38,669 bases of DNA, taken from a virus. Below are positions 9,830-35,535 of this stretch, one piece after another. The position numbers and the translations under genes were made by a program. The stretch is from IMG/VR virus record IMGVR_UViG_3300046740_000369, positions 1 through 38,669 of that record. One strand, given 5' to 3'. The notes under the pieces were generated by a model. The model was not told where the DNA came from. It saw only the letters and a list, made by a program, of their open reading frames with translations, and searched no databases. How positions within the stretch are numbered: the stretch's first letter is position 1; the number at the start of each line of letters is the position of its first letter.

Positions 9830-11249
9830 GGCCTCAAATCTCCTAAGACGCATGCGGGATTGGGTGACCAAGGGCGAGGGGAACTATAGACCAGGGCCAT
9901 ATTTTTTACCAGTGACCGGCGGGTGGTTGCCCGCCGGTGTGGCCGACAACTGGTGGCAGCAGGGCTACACGCCGGTCAGCTTCGGCGCCCAGTCGGCCAT
10001 GGTCGAGGCTTGCGTCTCGGCCTATGCGCAGACCGTCGCCATGTGTCCCGGCGACCATTGGCGGCTCAACGACAAAGATGGACGCGAGCGAGTCAAGACA
10101 TCGGCGCTCTCGCGTCTGCTGCGCCATCCCAACGACTACCAGTCGATCTCGGACTTCCTGCTGAACGCGACCCGCTCGCTCTACCTCGATGGCAACGCCT
10201 ATGCGCTCGGGCTGCGCAACGACCGCTTCGAGATCGACGAACTGCACCTGATGGACCCGCTGCAGTCGCATCCGCGGCTGGCCGCCAACGGCGATATTTT
10301 CTATCAGTTGCACGGCAACCAGGTGATCGAAAAACGGCTCGGCGCCGAGCCGCTGATCGTGCCGCAACGCGACGTCCTGCACATCCGTCTGCATACGGTG
10401 CGGCATCGCTGGCCGGCGCCGCTGGTCGGCGAGAGCCCGCTCGTTGCGGCCCAAAGCGACATCGGCATCAACGAAGCGATCGCGCGCCAGCAGACGGGGT
10501 ACTACCTCAACGAGGCGCGGCCCTCGGCGGTGCTCTCGACCGACCTGAAGCTCAAGCAGGAAGAGGTCCAGCAACTGCGCGACCGCTGGAACGACCAGAC
10601 CAAGGGCCTGCACCAGGGCGGCACGCCGATCCTGACGGCCGGCCTGAAGGTCCAGCCCTGGGCGCAGGGCGGCCGCGATGCCGCCACCGTTGACATGAAG
10701 AAACTGTCGAACGAGCAGATTGCGTTGGCGTTCCGCATCCCGCTGCAGATCCTCGGTATCGGCGGCACCGCGTACAGCTCGACCGAATTGCTGATGCAGA
10801 GCTGGGTCGCGAGCGGTTTAGGATTTGCACTCAATCACATCGAGGAAGCGTTCGGCCTGCTGTTCGACCTCAAGGGCCAGCCCGACGAGTATGTGGAATT
10901 CGACACCGCCGCGCTGCTGCGCTCGGCGATGAAGGACCGCATCGAGAGCCTGGCGCGCGGCGTGCAAGGCGGCATCTTCGCCCCGAACGAAGCGCGCGCG
11001 CTCGAAGGCTACGAGGCGGTTTCGTTCGGCGACGAGCCTCGCGTCCAGCAGCAGGTCGTCCCGTTGAGTCAGATCGGGAAGACACCTGCACCGGCGGCGC
11101 CGCCCAGTCCTCCCGCGGCGCTGCCGGCCGCGGCGTCGGATGCCGCTGCCGATCCGGCAAAGCCACCGGCACCACAGCCAGGGGCGCCCAAAAAGTCGGG
11201 CGCTGAGTTGGCCGCTGCTTTCACTCTGGCCCTGAAGGCTGCCGCATGA
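9828..11249 (+). CDS. portal protein (HK97 family)
   Basis: About 473 residues. The core shows VGESPLVAAQSDIGINEAIA, LSNEQIALAFRIPLQILGIG, then YSSTELLMQSWVASGL, typical of the HK97/Caudovirales portal family. The C-terminus (residues about 415-473) is a Pro/Ala-rich tail. It forms the dodecameric ring at one vertex through which DNA is packaged and to which the tail connects. The start is uncertain: TTG 9813, ATG 9828 (used here) and ATG 9852 are in frame and none has a strong ribosome site, probably because the HNH gene inserted just upstream. Unusually, it lies after the capsid gene rather than before. Confidence 0.9.
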   Translation: MASNLLRRMRDWVTKGEGNYRPGPYFLPVTGGWLPAGVADNWWQQGYTPVSFGAQSAMVEACVSAYAQTVAMCPGDHWRLNDKDGRERVKTSALSRLLRHPNDYQSISDFLLNATRSLYLDGNAYALGLRNDRFEIDELHLMDPLQSHPRLAANGDIFYQLHGNQVIEKRLGAEPLIVPQRDVLHIRLHTVRHRWPAPLVGESPLVAAQSDIGINEAIARQQTGYYLNEARPSAVLSTDLKLKQEEVQQLRDRWNDQTKGLHQGGTPILTAGLKVQPWAQGGRDAATVDMKKLSNEQIALAFRIPLQILGIGGTAYSSTELLMQSWVASGLGFALNHIEEAFGLLFDLKGQPDEYVEFDTAALLRSAMKDRIESLARGVQGGIFAPNEARALEGYEAVSFGDEPRVQQQVVPLSQIGKTPAPAAPPSPPAALPAAASDAAADPAKPPAPQPGAPKKSGAELAAAFTLALKAAA

Positions 11250-11518
11250 TGGACGACGAAACCATAACGGCGCTCGCCGCGGGCATGGCACCGTTTGTGC
11301 GCGAATGCGTGGCTGACGCCGTGTTCAATATTGGCCTCGACCAGCAGGTCGTCATGCTGCCACCCGAGCTCGCCGTCGAGGTCGCCAGTGCGGCCCGGAT
11401 GCTGCACGAGCTGCCGCCGATTGTGTCACGTGAAACACCGGCCGCCGCCAGGGTCACGCGCATCGAGCGCGACGAGAATGGCGCGCTGGTGCCGGTCTAT
11501 GGTGAGCCGCAACCGTGA
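11246..11518 (+). CDS. small hypothetical protein after portal
   Basis: A 90-residue protein: MMDDETITALAAGMAPFVRE, then a helical body and ETPAAARVTRIERDENGALV near the end. It overlaps the portal stop (ATGA) and the next start (GTGA). Acidic and soluble. Position suggests a virion accessory protein; no family recognised. Confidence 0.65.
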   Translation: MMDDETITALAAGMAPFVRECVADAVFNIGLDQQVVMLPPELAVEVASAARMLHELPPIVSRETPAAARVTRIERDENGALVPVYGEPQP

Positions 11519-28076: not shown

Positions 28077-29027
28077 ATGCTCAAAGTTGTGATATCGTCC
28101 GGCCACGGTCTCTACGTTCGCGGCGCCTGCGGCATCCTCGACGAGGTCGACGAGGCGCGCAGGGTCGTCAACCGCGTAGCGGAGGAGCTGCAGAGTCGGG
28201 GCACCGACGTGATGGTGTTTCACGACAACAGCAGCAAGAGTCAGAACGAGAACCTGAATGCGATCGTGAATTTCCACAACGCGCAAGAACGCGACTTGGA
28301 TGTGAGTTGCCACTTCAACGCCTATGAGCAGGTCGATAAGCCGATGGGCGTCGAGGTGCTCTACGTGACGCAAGAGGCGCTCGCCGCCGAGATGTCGGCC
28401 GCCATCGCGTCCTGCGGCTTCATCAATCGCGGCGCCAAGCGGCGCACCGACTTGTTCTTCCTCAACAACACCGAGAAGCCGGCGATCTTGCTCGAGGTCT
28501 GTTTCGTCGACAGCGAGGCCGATGCCAAGCTCTACGAGGCGAAGTTCCTTGACATCTGCGCGGCCATTGCCGACGAGCTCGGCGGCGAGCCGTTGGATGG
28601 CATCGCCGAGGCGCCGGCGCCGTTGTTCAAGGCTACCGGCAAGTGTTCGAGCTTCGGCGGCCCGGACGACACCGGCGTGTCGGCGAGCGAGGGCCTCGCT
28701 TTCATCTCGGATGTGATGCAGGCGCCGCATCTGTTTTTGCCGTATCAGCCAGAGGGGACGACCGGCCTGGCGCGGAGGCTCAATCCGTATATCCACTACT
28801 GCGCCGCGCGCTGGGACTACAACGTCACGTCGAAGGCCATGATGCGCGAAGAGATCGCGCTGGTGCGCGCGGGCGGCATCGAGCTGACGGCATTCCCGGC
28901 CGACTGGGGGCCGAACGAGAATACCGGCCGGGTGGCCGATCTCAGCCCTGGCCTGCTGGCCGACCTCGGGCTCAAGACCGACGACGAGGTCGAGGTCATC
29001 TTTCCGTACCGGCGGCCCGAGCCGTAA
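28077..29027 (+). CDS. endolysin: N-acetylmuramoyl-L-alanine amidase with extra C-terminal domain
   Basis: A 316-residue protein. Residues about 1-175 are an Amidase_3 domain with its zinc ligands in VVISSGHGLYVRG, VDEARRVVNRVA and DVSCHFNAYEQ, and the catalytic Glu in PAILLEVCFVDSEAD. It cuts the amide bond between muramic acid and the stem peptide. Residues about 190-316 are a second domain (CSSFGGPDDTGVSASEGLAF; LFLPYQPEGTTGLARRLNPY; GRVADLSPGLLADLGLKTDD), which resembles a double-psi beta-barrel type module common in rhizobial phage lysins. No signal peptide is seen, so a holin is required. Confidence 0.9.
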   Translation: MLKVVISSGHGLYVRGACGILDEVDEARRVVNRVAEELQSRGTDVMVFHDNSSKSQNENLNAIVNFHNAQERDLDVSCHFNAYEQVDKPMGVEVLYVTQEALAAEMSAAIASCGFINRGAKRRTDLFFLNNTEKPAILLEVCFVDSEADAKLYEAKFLDICAAIADELGGEPLDGIAEAPAPLFKATGKCSSFGGPDDTGVSASEGLAFISDVMQAPHLFLPYQPEGTTGLARRLNPYIHYCAARWDYNVTSKAMMREEIALVRAGGIELTAFPADWGPNENTGRVADLSPGLLADLGLKTDDEVEVIFPYRRPEP

Positions 29028-29536: not shown

Positions 29537-30010
29537 TCATGCAGTTTTGTTCTCGGTGGGCTCGCAAGCCGCGTCGATTTTTCCGGCCAGTTCGCGTAGC
29601 CGTGCAGCAACTTTGCTGCAACGCTCTATCGATTCCACGTCTTCGATTTTTCCCGTCTCCGGGCTCACGAGCAAATCGATCAAGCCATTGACCGCGCCTT
29701 CAAGCGAGCAGGCATACTGGCACCAATCGCCCCCTTGTTCTGCGAGCGGCAGCCCGACGTAGAGCGTCGCCGGATCAGAGACCGCTGGCCCGCCGCACCC
29801 GTCGCCGGTACTCCATGCGAAGGGAAAGTGCAGATATGGCGGCGACTCCTCGAACGCCATCCGCACGATGTCGGTGACCGCCTGCATTACTATTTCGTTG
29901 AGCCTCTGGCCGTCGTCGCTCTCCCAGAGTTGCCAAGTACGCAGGTCGATCGGCGGTGATCCAGGAACGGGGACCATTTCCTCATCAGGCATTTCCTCAT
30001 CATCAGGCAT
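29537..30010 (-). CDS. hypothetical protein downstream of integrase
   Basis: A 157-residue acidic protein. The N-terminus repeats an acidic Met unit (MPDDEEMPDEEM). It has WQLWESDDGQRLNEIVMQAV, FPFAWSTGDGCGGPAVSD, then a C-terminal helical coil (VESIERCSKVAARLRELAGK). The start overlaps the integrase stop (ATGA), so it is translated with integrase, and its stop abuts the candidate attP. No family recognised. The only gene between integrase and attP, so a link to recombination is conceivable but unproven. Confidence 0.6.
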   Translation of the reverse strand: MPDDEEMPDEEMVPVPGSPPIDLRTWQLWESDDGQRLNEIVMQAVTDIVRMAFEESPPYLHFPFAWSTGDGCGGPAVSDPATLYVGLPLAEQGGDWCQYACSLEGAVNGLIDLLVSPETGKIEDVESIERCSKVAARLRELAGKIDAACEPTENKTA

Positions 30011-31041
30011 CAGCTAAACCTCGCCAGCGTCCGGGCCATGCCCTCGTCGGCCATCTTGGCCCGGTTCGCCGCCCGCACGTAGGTGCGGATCTCCCGCATG
30101 TCCTGATGACCGCTGACCGAGGCGATGAAGTCCTCCGAGCACCCGGCCTGCGCCATCCGGCGCAACATTGCCTTGCGCAACCCATGCGCCCGGCAGCCGT
30201 CCGGCAGCCCAGCGTCGCGGCAACGGTCGCGCCACCAGTTTCCAAATCCGGCCGCAGTGAACGGCGCGCCCGCGCCGGTGACGATGAAGGTTCGGATGCC
30301 CAATGTCGGCGTCGCCTCGATGACCTCGGCGAGTTGCGGTGCGATCGGGATGTCCATCGGCACCCGGCCCTTGGATTGCACGTAGACCAGTCGGCCGGTT
30401 CTGGTGTTGGCGGGGCCAAGGTGGATGACGTCCTCGCGGCGCACCGCGGTGTAGAGCAGGAGCGCGAGCGCGAGCCGCGGCTTGGAGCCGACCGGCCAGT
30501 GCGACTCGAAGAGCTCGAGCTCCTCCTCGGACCAGGAGTGGTGCCCCTCGACCTTCCCGCGCTTGACGTTTGCGATGCCCGTCACCGGGTTGTCGGGACG
30601 CCAGCCGCGATCCTTCGCGAAGTCGAACAGCAGGCGAAGGTTGCGTTTCAGGTTGCGCTGCGCGCCGGGCAGGCCAGCCTTGCCGTCGAGGATGATGCGG
30701 ACGTGCTGTTGCTGGAGCAGCCGAACCGGCTTGGTGCCGTGCTGCTGGCAGAAGCGGCGTAGGATGTTGCGGTCGTTCGCCTGCGTCACCGGGCGGTTTT
30801 TCAGGAATTGATCCGATCGCATGTAATCCGAGACCAGCGCATCGATGCTGCCGGCCAGCACCCGCAGCGGGGCAGGGGGCTCGGCGCTCGCGAGCGCCAA
30901 CTGGTACGCGGCCATAAAGGCTTCGGAGCCGGGACGATCCGGCAACGCCACGCGGGCGCAGCCCTTGCGGCGGAAGTAGAACCGCAGGGTGCCGTGGCGG
31001 TCACGGAACCTTTGTACGAAGCGCAGTTCGATCCTTGCCAT
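30010..31041 (-). CDS. int: tyrosine-family site-specific integrase
   Basis: A 343-residue protein. The catalytic set is complete: Arg201 (TAVRRED), Lys224 (VQSKG), His286 and Arg289 (HGLRK), His312 (SGHQD) and Tyr321 (IRTYVRAA). The N-terminal arm-binding and core-binding domains occupy residues about 1-165. It catalyses integration of the circular phage into the host chromosome through a covalent 3'-phosphotyrosine. Start set at the ATG of MARIEL, with GAGG about 9 bases upstream; earlier in-frame starts lie within the previous gene. It overlaps the preceding small gene by 41 bases, which suggests coupled translation. Confidence 0.93.
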   Translation of the reverse strand: MARIELRFVQRFRDRHGTLRFYFRRKGCARVALPDRPGSEAFMAAYQLALASAEPPAPLRVLAGSIDALVSDYMRSDQFLKNRPVTQANDRNILRRFCQQHGTKPVRLLQQQHVRIILDGKAGLPGAQRNLKRNLRLLFDFAKDRGWRPDNPVTGIANVKRGKVEGHHSWSEEELELFESHWPVGSKPRLALALLLYTAVRREDVIHLGPANTRTGRLVYVQSKGRVPMDIPIAPQLAEVIEATPTLGIRTFIVTGAGAPFTAAGFGNWWRDRCRDAGLPDGCRAHGLRKAMLRRMAQAGCSEDFIASVSGHQDMREIRTYVRAANRAKMADEGMARTLARFS

Positions 31042-31219
31042 CCCGCAAAACCTCATTCCAAGGGTTGTCGCCGTCCGCGCTGACAGGCGCGTCGAGCGTC
31101 GAGACAACGATCTCGCCGTCGGGGCGGATCACCACCTGAACCGCGACCTTGGCCTTGCCCGCCGCCTTGAAAATGCGGGCAATATCGGCCTCACGGAATC
31201 TGGCGGCAGCACGCGACAT
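31001..31219 (-). CDS. small conserved protein upstream of integrase
   Basis: A 72-residue protein: MSRAAARFREADIARIFKAA, then VAVQVVIRPDGEIVVSTLD, and ending NPWNEVLRDGKD. The A-x-F-x-E-A-D-x-x-R-x-x-K-A-A ... V-x-I-x-P-D-G-x-I-V-V ... N-P-W-(D/N)-E-V-L pattern is familiar as the small gene overlapping tyrosine integrases in rhizobial prophages. Start at 31219, 6 bases after GAAAGG. It could be a recombination directionality factor or an integrase cofactor; no HTH is evident, so this is only inference from position. Confidence 0.7.
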   Translation of the reverse strand: MSRAAARFREADIARIFKAAGKAKVAVQVVIRPDGEIVVSTLDAPVSADGDNPWNEVLRDGKDRTALRTKVP

Positions 31220-31398: not shown

Positions 31399-31758
31399 TC
31401 ACCGATTGCAGCGCCACGAGCGGCCGTTGTTGTAGTAGCTCCGGCCTTTGCCGCGGCAGATATCTGGCTCTCGTTTCGCAGGCTTAGGGGCAGCAGCGGC
31501 AACGACCGGCTTTGGTTGTTCCTCAGCCGGCGAAGAGACCCGCATCGCCTGGACCGGCAGTGTGAAGACGGGCTCTGATGGGAACGCCTGATAGCTCTCG
31601 GTGATCACACGCACGGGTGTCGGCAGAGGCATCGTGAACGGCTTGGGCGCGACGGCTTTGTCGGTCTTGACCGGGGGGGGCTTCGCCTTCGGCACGCTGG
31701 GTGTTGGCGACAGCATCAGGGCGAAAAACATCAGCGCGACTACGATTGCTTGGCGCAT
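31399..31758 (-). CDS. secreted Pro-rich protein with C-terminal Cys motif
   Basis: A 119-residue protein. Residues 1-20 (RQAIVVALMFFALMLSPTP) are a signal peptide. The middle is a Pro/Ala/Lys-rich linker (PKAKPPPVKTDKAVAPKPF; PVVAAAAPKPAKREP). The C-terminus DICRGKGRSYYNNGRSWRCN has two cysteines framing G-R-S-(Y/W) repeats. AAGGA is 7 bases before the ATG. The Cys-Arg-Gly ... G-R-S-W-R-C pattern occurs in small exported proteins of Bradyrhizobium-like bacteria, from memory. It is likely a prophage-expressed host-surface (moron) protein; the role is unknown. Confidence 0.65.
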   Translation of the reverse strand: MRQAIVVALMFFALMLSPTPSVPKAKPPPVKTDKAVAPKPFTMPLPTPVRVITESYQAFPSEPVFTLPVQAMRVSSPAEEQPKPVVAAAAPKPAKREPDICRGKGRSYYNNGRSWRCNR

Positions 31759-31775: not shown

Positions 31776-31930
31776 CCTTGCCTTGCCACGCCTCGCCATT
31801 CCGCGCCTGGCCATTCCGCGCCCCGCCCCGCCGGGCCATGCCGGGCCCCGCCGCGCCGAGCCACGCCTCGCCTCGCCTCGCCCTGCCTCGCCCTGCCGAG
31901 CCGAGCCCGGCCGCGCCCCGCCCGGCCGCG
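31776..31930. repeat. 31-unit patterned pentamer repeat (CCNNG)n
   Basis: 155 bases divide without gaps into 31 pentamers. All 31 start with CC and 29 end with G (two are CCATT); the two middle positions vary among TT, AC, TC, GC, TG, CC, GG, AT, GA, CT and CG. On the minus strand it reads as C-N-N-G-G units, i.e. GGC-rich purine blocks. It lies between two leftward genes, in the leader of the secreted Pro-rich protein gene (start 31758). The reading frames across it are low-complexity and have no supported start, so it is probably non-coding. Confidence 0.85.
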
Positions 31931-31956
31931 CCTAATTTAAGCGACGCGCGCGGACG

Positions 31957-32187
31957 TCATGTTGCGTACCAATTTTCGATGGCGATCCAGGCCAGAATGC
32001 CGCTCGGTATGCCGAGCATCATGGCGGTTTGGGCACCGACCCAGAACGAATAGACGAAGCAGACGCCTATGATGGTGCCGATCGACACCAAGTCTCGGCG
32101 CAGGAGCGGCTGCTCGGCCCAATCGCTGTAGTGGTCGAGCATCCGCGAGAGGCGCACCGGCATGCGGGGCAGCGGGATGTTCGGCAT
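31957..32187 (-). CDS. two-span small membrane protein
   Basis: A 76-residue protein: MPNIPLPRMPVRLSRMLDHY, then two hydrophobic segments, LVSIGTIIGVCFVYSFWVGA and MMLGIPSGILAWIAIENWY. AAGGAG lies 8 bases before the ATG, which decides this start over upstream in-frame codons. A strong hairpin (32213-32250) lies in its leader. Size and topology allow a holin-like or superinfection-exclusion role, but nothing in the sequence decides. Confidence 0.65.
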   Translation of the reverse strand: MPNIPLPRMPVRLSRMLDHYSDWAEQPLLRRDLVSIGTIIGVCFVYSFWVGAQTAMMLGIPSGILAWIAIENWYAT

Positions 32188-32212
32188 ATCGGTTGCTCCT
32201 TTGGAGCGGCAA

Positions 32213-32250
32213 GCGCGTGCGGGCGCGAGGCCATTCGAACCCGCACGCGC
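32213..32250. other. strong inverted repeat between leftward accessory genes
   Basis: GCGCGTGCGGG (32213-32223) and CCCGCACGCGC (32240-32250) are perfect 11-base complements with a 16-base loop. It lies in the 98-base gap between the sorting-signal protein and the two-span membrane protein, 26 bases upstream of the latter's start. No T-run follows in either direction, so it may be an intrinsic pause, an mRNA-stabilising hairpin, or an attenuator that separates expression of the two genes. Confidence 0.6.
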
Positions 32251-32285
32251 CCTCATGCTGACGGAAGGGCAGAGGGAACGTACCG

Positions 32286-32930
32286 TCAGGCGTGAGCTTG
32301 GTTGCGGCGACGCTTGTTCAGTCCCCAGAGTCCAACGAGAGCGGCCAGGATGCCGGGGAAGCCTGCACCGGCCACCGGGCCAGGCACCGCCAGCGGAGAT
32401 GCGACATCGATACGATAGTGTTCGAAGTCCGTGAGAGTGCCGGTTGTGACGACCCGGAACGAGTTGATCGTCTCGCCGTTGATGGCGGTCAAGGTGAACC
32501 CGGACTGGGCCGATAAGCTGAGTGCACCGAGACTGAACGTAAACAGCGAGGTTCCACCACCCGGTTCGTTGGCGATCACGATCGCCGACGCGTCCCCGGT
32601 GCCTTTCAGGGAGAATACATCGGTGGCGGTGGGCAGCACGGTGGTGCCGTTGGGTGCAAAAACCTGAACTTTCAGGTCGTTGGTGTTGGCGATCTTGATG
32701 TCGTTGCCGTTGGCGGCACCGGTGAAACCACCGCAGCCACCCAGGCAGGAGAAATCAACGAGCCCGGTGTGGGTGCCGTTGAAGCTGCCGACGGCGACAT
32801 TGCCGAACAGCCCCTGGAAGATGACGTTGTCGCCGGTACCGCTTAGGTGGTTGTCGATGATAACGTCGGCCTTGGCTGGCATGGCCGATAGTGCCAGCAG
32901 GGCGGCGGTAGCGAGTAAGTATTTACGCAT
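32286..32930 (-). CDS. secreted protein with PEP-CTERM-like sorting tail
   Basis: A 214-residue protein. Residues 1-22 (MRKYLLATAALLALSAMPAKA) are a signal peptide. The body is a Gly/Asn/Thr-rich beta domain (GNVAVGSFNGTHTGLVDFSC; DVFSLKGTGDASAIVIANEP). The C-terminus has the three-part anchor-and-sort layout: VPGPVAGAGFPG, a hydrophobic helix (ILAALVGLWGLN), then RRR. Such tails are frequent in Bradyrhizobium and relatives and resemble PEP-CTERM/VPLPA exosortase signals. Displaying a protein on the host surface is not a virion job, so this is a probable moron acting in the lysogen. The sorting enzyme would have to be the host's. Confidence 0.75.
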   Translation of the reverse strand: MRKYLLATAALLALSAMPAKADVIIDNHLSGTGDNVIFQGLFGNVAVGSFNGTHTGLVDFSCLGGCGGFTGAANGNDIKIANTNDLKVQVFAPNGTTVLPTATDVFSLKGTGDASAIVIANEPGGGTSLFTFSLGALSLSAQSGFTLTAINGETINSFRVVTTGTLTDFEHYRIDVASPLAVPGPVAGAGFPGILAALVGLWGLNKRRRNQAHA

Positions 32931-33148: not shown

Positions 33149-33897
33149 GTCATCAGCCCTCGCAATTCGTCGCCCATCGCGTTTAGCCGCTCGCGTTCCT
33201 TGGCATTGCGGCTCTTGTAGAAAGTCTTGAACACCGCCTCGCCGCGCATGGCGGCCTCGCGCGCCATTTCCTCCAGCGACATGGCCGCCCCGCCCGCGTC
33301 GGTTTCGGTGTCGGACGAGGCGGCCTGTTCCACCGCTTCGCGAGGCACTGGCGCGGGCGGCGAAACCTCTCCGGTCTCGGGATCGTGCTGCAGCATCGCG
33401 TTCGGCGCCGGCGGCGGCGGGCGGCGGTGCGCCATCACCGGGATGTCGGCGATCTCCAACTCGTCGAGCCAGCCGAGCCCGCAAATCGACAGAGTGACGC
33501 GCCTCTTGCTTTTAGTTACGGCCTTCATCTCCGCGTTGGCGCGGGCCTCGCCCTTGAGCGTCTCGGGGTAGTAGACCGAGCCGAAATCCTCGTCGGTGCG
33601 GCCATCGGGCAGCTTGGCGCGGGCATGCACCGTGAGGATATCGCCGGCGACTTTTTGCGAGACTATTTCAACCGAGACATTGTTGATCTTGCGCAACTGG
33701 TCGGCGCAATCGCGCCGCGCATAAAGCACCGTCTTGCCGCCGAGATTCACATAATCAAATGGACGCGTCAGCGGGTTAAGGCCGAGACTGCGGCATGTTT
33801 CATTATAGTATCTCACTCGTTCATCCGAAGTGAGTTTCGATAAATCGCCCTTGACGATAACCGACTCCATGATGTCGCTTTGGACGGGGACGTTCAT
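33145..33897 (-). CDS. putative single-strand annealing recombinase
   Basis: A 250-residue protein. The core is residues about 20-150: YYNETCRSLGLNPLTRPFDY, KTVLYARRDCADQLRKINNV, EARANAEMKAVTKSKRRVTL then SICGLGWLDE. The pattern (C-x-x-L-G-L-N-P-L-T-R-P-F ... A-R-R-D-x-x-D-Q-L-R-K ... K-R-R-V-T-L-S-x-x-G-L-G-x-L-D-E) belongs to a phage family that I place near RecT/Rad52-like annealing proteins. The rest is a Pro/Ala-rich, disordered region and a helical end. It is coupled (ATGA) to the YqaJ-like exonuclease, forming a lambda Red-like exonuclease-annealase pair. Confidence 0.65.
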   Translation of the reverse strand: MNVPVQSDIMESVIVKGDLSKLTSDERVRYYNETCRSLGLNPLTRPFDYVNLGGKTVLYARRDCADQLRKINNVSVEIVSQKVAGDILTVHARAKLPDGRTDEDFGSVYYPETLKGEARANAEMKAVTKSKRRVTLSICGLGWLDELEIADIPVMAHRRPPPPAPNAMLQHDPETGEVSPPAPVPREAVEQAASSDTETDAGGAAMSLEEMAREAAMRGEAVFKTFYKSRNAKERERLNAMGDELRGLMT

Positions 33898-34685
33898 GTG
33901 ATTTCCCTCAGTGATAATCTTCCGGCCCTGTCCCGAGTTATGACGACGCCATAGCCGGTGACTTTCTTGGCATCCTCCGGCACAATTGCCTTAAGGTCTT
34001 TCTCGGCTTCAGCGTGATCGCGCGCGGCGACCTTGGTCGTGAGCCAAGCGGCGGCAGCCGCTGCCCATCGATTGTCGCCGGACATGTCATAGTGTTTGGA
34101 GACGACAACCGGCCCCGCGACGGGAGCGAGATGCACCGGCACGATCCGCCGCGCGACACAGTCCATGAATTGCGCACCGCGATGAATCATCTCGGCGGCG
34201 TAGTCGGGATCGCGCTCGATGTATTCCACGATTGGCGGACTGGCGCCCATGATGACTGACAGACCACATTGATTGGCGGTGGTGCATTCCATCTGCCATT
34301 GCATCTGCGGCTGGTAGCGGTCGACGATGACCTCGAGCGGCTCGCGGCCGCCGACGTGCTTCGCCTCGACCGGACAGAAGAGCGTGTCGTCCCACGCGTC
34401 GAGCGTACACGCACCCCAAGCATGCTTGGGGTGCACTACGACCTCGCCGCGTCGCGACAGCGGATTGCGCCGCATCACGTACCAATCCAAATTGAGAGAT
34501 TCCGTTGCGGCTCCGAGCCGCACTGCCCACACGTCGGACAGGTCTTCCGGCACGAACGCCGGGTCGTCGGTCATCTCGAGATAGAGGTTCATGATCTTGG
34601 CAGCGTCGCCGGTCATCAGGCAGGCAACCCTGCTGGCCGTCAGCTTTCCGCGCCGCGCCGTGATCTGTTCTGGCGACAACATCAC
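33894..34685 (-). CDS. YqaJ-like recombination exonuclease
   Basis: A 263-residue protein. ITARRGKLTASRVACLMTGD (N-terminal YqaJ signature), RLGAATESLNLDWY with its Glu, LDAWDD with the metal-binding Asp, PVEAKHVGG as the E-x-K motif, and YQPQMQWQME with the Gln motif: all expected PD-(D/E)XK elements of lambda-exonuclease-like enzymes are present in order. It would resect double-stranded DNA ends 5' to 3' to give single strands for the annealing protein. Both ends overlap neighbours (ATGA). Confidence 0.85.
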   Translation of the reverse strand: MMLSPEQITARRGKLTASRVACLMTGDAAKIMNLYLEMTDDPAFVPEDLSDVWAVRLGAATESLNLDWYVMRRNPLSRRGEVVVHPKHAWGACTLDAWDDTLFCPVEAKHVGGREPLEVIVDRYQPQMQWQMECTTANQCGLSVIMGASPPIVEYIERDPDYAAEMIHRGAQFMDCVARRIVPVHLAPVAGPVVVSKHYDMSGDNRWAAAAAAWLTTKVAARDHAEAEKDLKAIVPEDAKKVTGYGVVITRDRAGRLSLREIT

Positions 34686-35208: not shown

Positions 35209-35535
35209 TTACTTGGGCTTTTTCGGCCCTCTCCGGCCACGCGCCCGACTCAAGTCCACTGGGCCAAGGCGCTCGCGAGCGCGAATTTTTTCAAGCAAAT
35301 CGCTAGGCAGGCGGCCACGATCGCCGTCATAAACCCATTCGAACGTAAAGCCGTACTCGTCCTTGAGCCGATATACAGCGTCGACAGTGATGCGCCGCGT
35401 GCCCTCTGGGTTGACGTATTGTGACCATTGATTAGGGCGCAGCCCTGTGTTTTTGCAGAGTTCTGTGGCCGAGACGTCAAGAGCCTCCCGTGTCAACTCG
35501 AGCCGATAGGCAATGTCGCGCTGGCTTCTGGACAT
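35209..35535 (-). CDS. XRE-family repressor-like regulator
   Basis: A 108-residue protein. Residues about 8-65 are a Cro/C1-type helix-turn-helix (LELTREALDVSATELCKNTG, then RPNQWSQYVNPEGTRRITVD and AVYRLKDEYGFTFEWVYDGD). The C-terminus is basic (SRARGRRGPKKPK). There is no LexA-like autoprotease domain, so induction by RecA-driven self-cleavage is not expected. It is flanked by operator pairs on both sides and is divergent from the Cro-like gene; it is the best candidate for the lysogeny repressor. The ribosome site before its ATG is very weak. Which of the two HTH proteins binds the dyads is inference. Confidence 0.8.
   Translation of the reverse strand: MSRSQRDIAYRLELTREALDVSATELCKNTGLRPNQWSQYVNPEGTRRITVDAVYRLKDEYGFTFEWVYDGDRGRLPSDLLEKIRARERLGPVDLSRARGRRGPKKPK

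Follow-up and report, generated by a model that had tools for sequence, protein, structure and literature searches.

The genome of IMG/VR virus record IMGVR_UViG_3300046740_000369 (38,669 nt, analysed over its full length and referred to below as the window) was found to carry a long run of five-base units in which three positions are fixed and two vary. The question raised by this locus is what keeps such a frame in place around a changing centre. The 38.7-kb record is close to its relatives in size and its ends are open. Genes for a tyrosine integrase (30010..31107, minus strand), a repressor-like HTH protein (35209-35535, minus strand) and an endolysin (28077-29027, plus strand) identify it as a temperate tailed phage, and the hosts of its closest named relatives by terminase are Hyphomicrobiales (Roseibium, Agrobacterium). 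The terminase relatives used for comparison, here termed sister phages, include G049 (96% identical), G051 (93%), G052, G054, G056, G059 and G061.

The pentamer array and its setting

Positions 31776-31930 hold 31 gap-free pentamers that begin with CC in every unit and end with G in 29 and with T in the other two, as an earlier note on this DNA had described. The natural unit frame is GCCNN on the plus strand, equivalent to GGCNN on the coding minus strand, and in this frame the unit list gives a (GGCNN)n array at 31776..31934 (minus-strand sense) of 31 units, 29 GGC and two GGA. Within it, a pattern scan located a core of 23 perfect GGC triplets in an unbroken row with 2-nt variable spacers (31820..31932, minus strand). 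Autocorrelation gave a match of 0.64–0.74 at lags that are multiples of 5 and about 0.33 at every other lag, and the array is free of internal frameshift, retaining one unbroken phase over all 31 units. It is the only array found on scanning the whole record; the reversed control pattern gave no matches, and Rfam had none in the window at gathering score. The middle bases do vary, 11 of the 16 possible dinucleotides being used, though not quite as freely as first described, since the second variable base on the plus strand is C in 16 of the 31 units. With eleven middle dinucleotides and none dominant, slippage is not the cause of the array, and the earlier view that a fixed frame with a changing centre has been selected was upheld.

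The array is flanked directly upstream by a 99-aa ORF (31957..32256, minus strand), whose stop precedes it, and directly downstream by a 119-aa ORF (31399..31758, minus strand), whose ribosome-binding site follows it. The latter has a hydrophobic N-terminus and no Pfam or PHROG match, and its ATG lies about 18 nt beyond the array; the array thus stands ahead of this gene on the coding strand, as had been stated, and the integrase gene belongs to the same leftward run of genes, further downstream. A 214-aa ORF at 32286-32930 (minus strand), which has no Pfam or PHROG match, has a signal-like start, and at its C-terminus a hydrophobic segment precedes a basic tail, resembling a sorting signal; it is a possible cargo gene.

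This position, together with the AAGG in which the array ends, would suit a G-rich leader that adjusts the 119-aa gene through a series of ribosome standby sites or a structured element, as the earlier note had proposed. However, sister phage G051 retains the 119-aa gene (84% identical) directly after its orthologue of the 99-aa gene with no array between them, and arrays elsewhere adjoin many different genes, often beginning right after the upstream stop and lying up to several hundred nt before the next start. Neither standby sites nor a gene-specific leader is therefore supported, and we consider this reading very unlikely. G051 has an array of its own between yqaJ and the next gene, a place where the window has none. 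As the two arrays occupy different sites, each absent in the other phage, such arrays are gained and lost as intergenic modules.

An array class in viruses and its partner protein

A viral collection was scanned for GCC repeated twelve times at a spacing of 5 bases, which returned at least 120 stretches, and degenerate pentamer arrays with high-entropy centres were found in more than 100 viral contigs. These contigs often carry several arrays each, always on one strand per contig. In a similar scan of bacterial genomes, the matches listed were nearly all microsatellites of few unit types, and the degenerate arrays thus form a virus-enriched class. With arrays masked, 151 of 284 lie between same-strand genes and 18 of 284 between opposite-strand genes, in keeping with an intergenic location and coding-strand sense.

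Many arrays are chains of blocks separated by 1-base phase shifts, with a modal block length of 11 and mostly 9–14 units; as the scan demanded 12 units, the lengths of single blocks are biased, those of inner chain blocks far less so. Long single blocks are present in other array contigs too. The 5-base phase is kept in relatives, with shifts of one base only between blocks of about 9–14 units, and the random indels that the earlier note had named as evidence against its reading were not found. Long chains of 9–14-unit blocks with single-base phase shifts (GGCAGGC), some blocks being exact duplicates, occur in L125 (5812-6625), L078, L042 and L059, and probably represent a series of guides. 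At L025:5662-5719, L298:18621-18768 and L045:9115-9172, high-entropy arrays were observed without a recognisable Vipr (see below) nearby; these are further candidates for orphan arrays.

With the window array as BLAST query no cultured phage was matched; a longer multi-block array matched Mycobacterium and Gordonia phages. Multi-block GGCNN arrays were seen in the cultured Mycobacterium phages Donkeykong (L258:6890-7233) and Quico (L259:7315-7553) and in the cultured Gordonia phage UmaThurman (L260:8363-8663), near genes resembling phrog_4652 or phrog_15946 that are annotated as hypothetical (gp39 and gp41 in UmaThurman). Pentanucleotide microsatellites are common in bacterial genomes, and the array might be imagined to be an ordinary one, or an assembly artefact; its eleven middle dinucleotides and the recurrence of the class in independent metagenomes and in these three cultured phages leave that reading a next to negligible probability.

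Literature searches for five-base repeats in phages brought up no relevant report; the link to a known system came from a PDB sequence search with a protein family shared by array-bearing phages. Comparison of 3,490 ORFs from 128 array-bearing records, some of which are fragments or plain microsatellites, disclosed phrog_4652, a family of unannotated function, as by far the most shared; a six-frame HMM search placed it in 93 of the 128 records. An array lies within 750 nt of all 95 instances, on the same strand in 93 of them. The second shared family, phrog_15946, occurs in 29 of the 128 records. No Pfam family matched phrog_4652 convincingly over its whole alignment, and a PDB sequence search matched its profile to chain 36pp_D, the SUSP1 Vipr protein (E = 3.7e-39). 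Foldseek searches with an AlphaFold (AF2) model of phrog_4652 (pLDDT 95.7) gave Csm3 and type VII Cas7 proteins as best matches (E about 1e-5); as modelled, phrog_4652 has a Cas7-like fold. That related arrays partner with a Cas7-like Vipr family lends weight to the earlier suggestion of a protein-binding array, and a function is indicated for two unannotated phage families, phrog_4652 and phrog_15946.

VIPR is described as consisting of Vipr, an early-branching RAMP protein, and vrRNAs, which have 9–16 GGY/NN repeats with conserved GGY, hypervariable NN and a structured 3' tail (PMC13142463, bioRxiv 2026). According to this report, NN pairs read DNA with one base skipped after each pair, the elements targeted in nature are satellites and prophages, seven types are named alongside six accessory genes, and staggered overlapping vrRNAs are mentioned; its main text does not discuss orphan arrays, self, allele or homing (PMC13142463).

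Guide targets in sister phages and the reading of the window array

The skip rule was examined by comparing 306 arrays with 3.65 Mb of array-masked phage DNA, allowing 0–3 skipped bases and taking scores of at least 18 as strong. Seven strong matches were obtained at skip 1, whereas skipping 0, 2 or 3 bases gave 0/3/0; with shuffled guides the counts were 0/0/0/1. The top skip-1 match falls within the window phage's own family. The G051 guide matches the 3' end of yqaJ at 26 of 26 positions in sibling L355, at 22 of 26 in the window (33945-33983, within the YqaJ/RecE-like exonuclease gene at 33894..34685, minus strand) and at 17 of 26 in the yqaJ of G051 itself, a gene that directly adjoins the G051 array. 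The G049 guide matches codons 2–11 of a small gene at 20 of 20 positions in sibling L357 and at 18 of 20 in G052 and in the window, where the match begins at 11252 in a 90-aa ORF (11246..11518, plus strand); the G049 array lies just upstream of its own copy of the targeted gene, whose start has diverged. For both guides it is the codon wobble position that goes unread. The G051 and G049 arrays (L389:15411-15610 and L387:8474-8700) each adjoin the phage's own diverged copy of the gene matched in siblings. As the targets are perfect in siblings and diverged in self next to the array, each of these arrays appears to lie next to an allele of its own target that is self-sparing; this pattern comprises two guides in one phage family. 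Outside the window's family allelic targeting was not seen, array and target neighbourhoods being non-homologous in the other top skip-1 matches except for two weak ones, in which only the Vipr sequences align.

Other sister phages differ in their array content. G056 and G059 encode Vipr and a phrog_15946 gene, and between the two genes (L396:5240-5497, minus strand, and L398:17869-18126) lie three arrays of GACNN, not GGYNN, units (16, 8 and 16 of them perfect); a hairpin-like stretch comes next. Targets of the G056 GACNN arrays and of a mixed array in G054 were sought and not found. Strong terminator-like hairpins follow the arrays of G049, G051 and G054.

Two further explanations bear on these results. 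Spacing by one half helical turn of DNA, which the earlier note had put forward, is not supported, the arrays being tied to Cas7-like Vipr and the variable bases of sister arrays holding target information under the one-base-skip rule. The triplet and 2-nt spacer geometry and the block-length mode near 11 also recall the wrapping of GGC triplets around an 11- or 12-subunit TRAP-like ring that would regulate the downstream gene. Such a ring target is highly improbable: PF02081 was absent from all of 50 array-bearing records, the protein linked to the arrays is Cas7-like and not TRAP-like, and in relatives the variable bases encode a target. It was dropped on the first two grounds, and the Vipr match together with the skip-rule targets largely refutes it.

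Given the Vipr link of other arrays and the reproduced skip rule, the window array is most likely of vrRNA type. Its assignment to the class of orphan vrRNA-type guide arrays of the VIPR kind is very probable. It would not be a complete VIPR system, since neither Vipr, phrog_15946 nor a tail was found in the window and the searches gave no target for its guide. Homologues of the two proteins were absent in a six-frame HMM search with E up to 10, and a motif search for diverged Vipr gave no RAMP-like G-loop candidate; by the same two methods diverged Vipr was also not found in G049 and G051. No hairpin tail follows the array. No convincing target of the window guide was found in relatives, in the 3.65 Mb of phage DNA, in five 8-unit tile scans of the viral collection or in 23 host-order genomes, the best local match being 8 units in L325 and near chance, as 8- to 10-unit matches are for a tile search of this kind. 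An allele from a sibling phage outside the sampled set is the probable target.

By analogy with VIPR, the array would encode a vrRNA-type guide RNA whose GGC triplets serve as scaffold, with Cas7-like Vipr subunits sitting along the RNA. The NN pairs would jointly read double-stranded DNA, one unread base, usually the codon wobble base, following each pair, and the guide would silence a gene of a competing phage. We infer that the window array is itself transcribed and loaded. As no recognisable Vipr is present in the 38.7-kb record, the protein may be supplied by a co-resident phage or the host, be encoded on an unsequenced end or be too diverged to detect; the record ends being open, a vipr gene could lie just outside.

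The missing Vipr and tail and the failure to find a target could also be features of a decayed or captured vrRNA remnant, left after a whole VIPR locus was once carried or an array recombined in, with Vipr and tail since lost, and now non-functional or only a leader of the 119-aa gene. The array stands at a site where G051 has none, and its 3' end runs into a ribosome-binding site, as do arrays directly upstream of vipr genes. Yet 29 of the 31 units retain GGC, 23 of them in an unbroken row, with no frameshift, and neutral decay would have eroded this frame; a remnant thus seems rather unlikely. As it shares a vrRNA origin with the preferred reading and differs only on present activity, the two estimates overlap.

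A wider scheme can be put forward tentatively, at somewhat less than even confidence. Sister temperate phages may be engaged in an allele war, fought with guide arrays that stand alone and are placed at target-orthologous loci beside diverged self-sparing alleles. Guide and immunity would be exchanged as one module, like a homing element at its own site, with Vipr acting in trans and the window phage being an orphan-guide member.

VIPR was described only in 2026, and the origin of new guides is an open question. In the family of the window phage, near-isogenic siblings occur naturally: there are guides that match siblings perfectly, guides next to a diverged copy of the gene they target, and phages that have arrays but no recognisable Vipr. 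It can be tested directly here whether an orphan guide functions with the Vipr of another phage and whether guides spread together with an immune allele, and UmaThurman, Donkeykong and Quico are cultured array phages open to study in standard laboratory hosts.

Comparison with known systems

Pentanucleotide microsatellites share the 5-base period of the array and have one or few unit types, in contrast to its high-entropy centre. The TRAP leader RNA of the Bacillus trp operon is similar in its leader triplets, 2-nt variable spacers and about 11 triplets per block; it differs in having (G/U)AG where GGC is found here, no TRAP homologue accompanies the arrays, and their spacer bases carry information. 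In the Cas7/crRNA filaments of class 1 CRISPR systems (Csm3, type VII Cas7), whose Cas7 the Vipr model resembles, protein units likewise repeat along a guide RNA and break its pairing periodically. Here, however, there is no CRISPR array, spacer or cas gene, the repeat unit is 5 nt and only two bases are read per unit.

From VIPR itself the window array departs in its 31 units against 9–16, in its two GGA units, in a record without Vipr or a phrog_15946 (Vap-like) homologue, and in having neither a structured tail nor a target found. The likeness lies in the tandem GGY/NN layout with hypervariable NN, phage-borne and intergenic, in the linked protein of other array phages, which is Vipr, and in the one-base-skip code, by which the sister arrays find genes of sibling phages.
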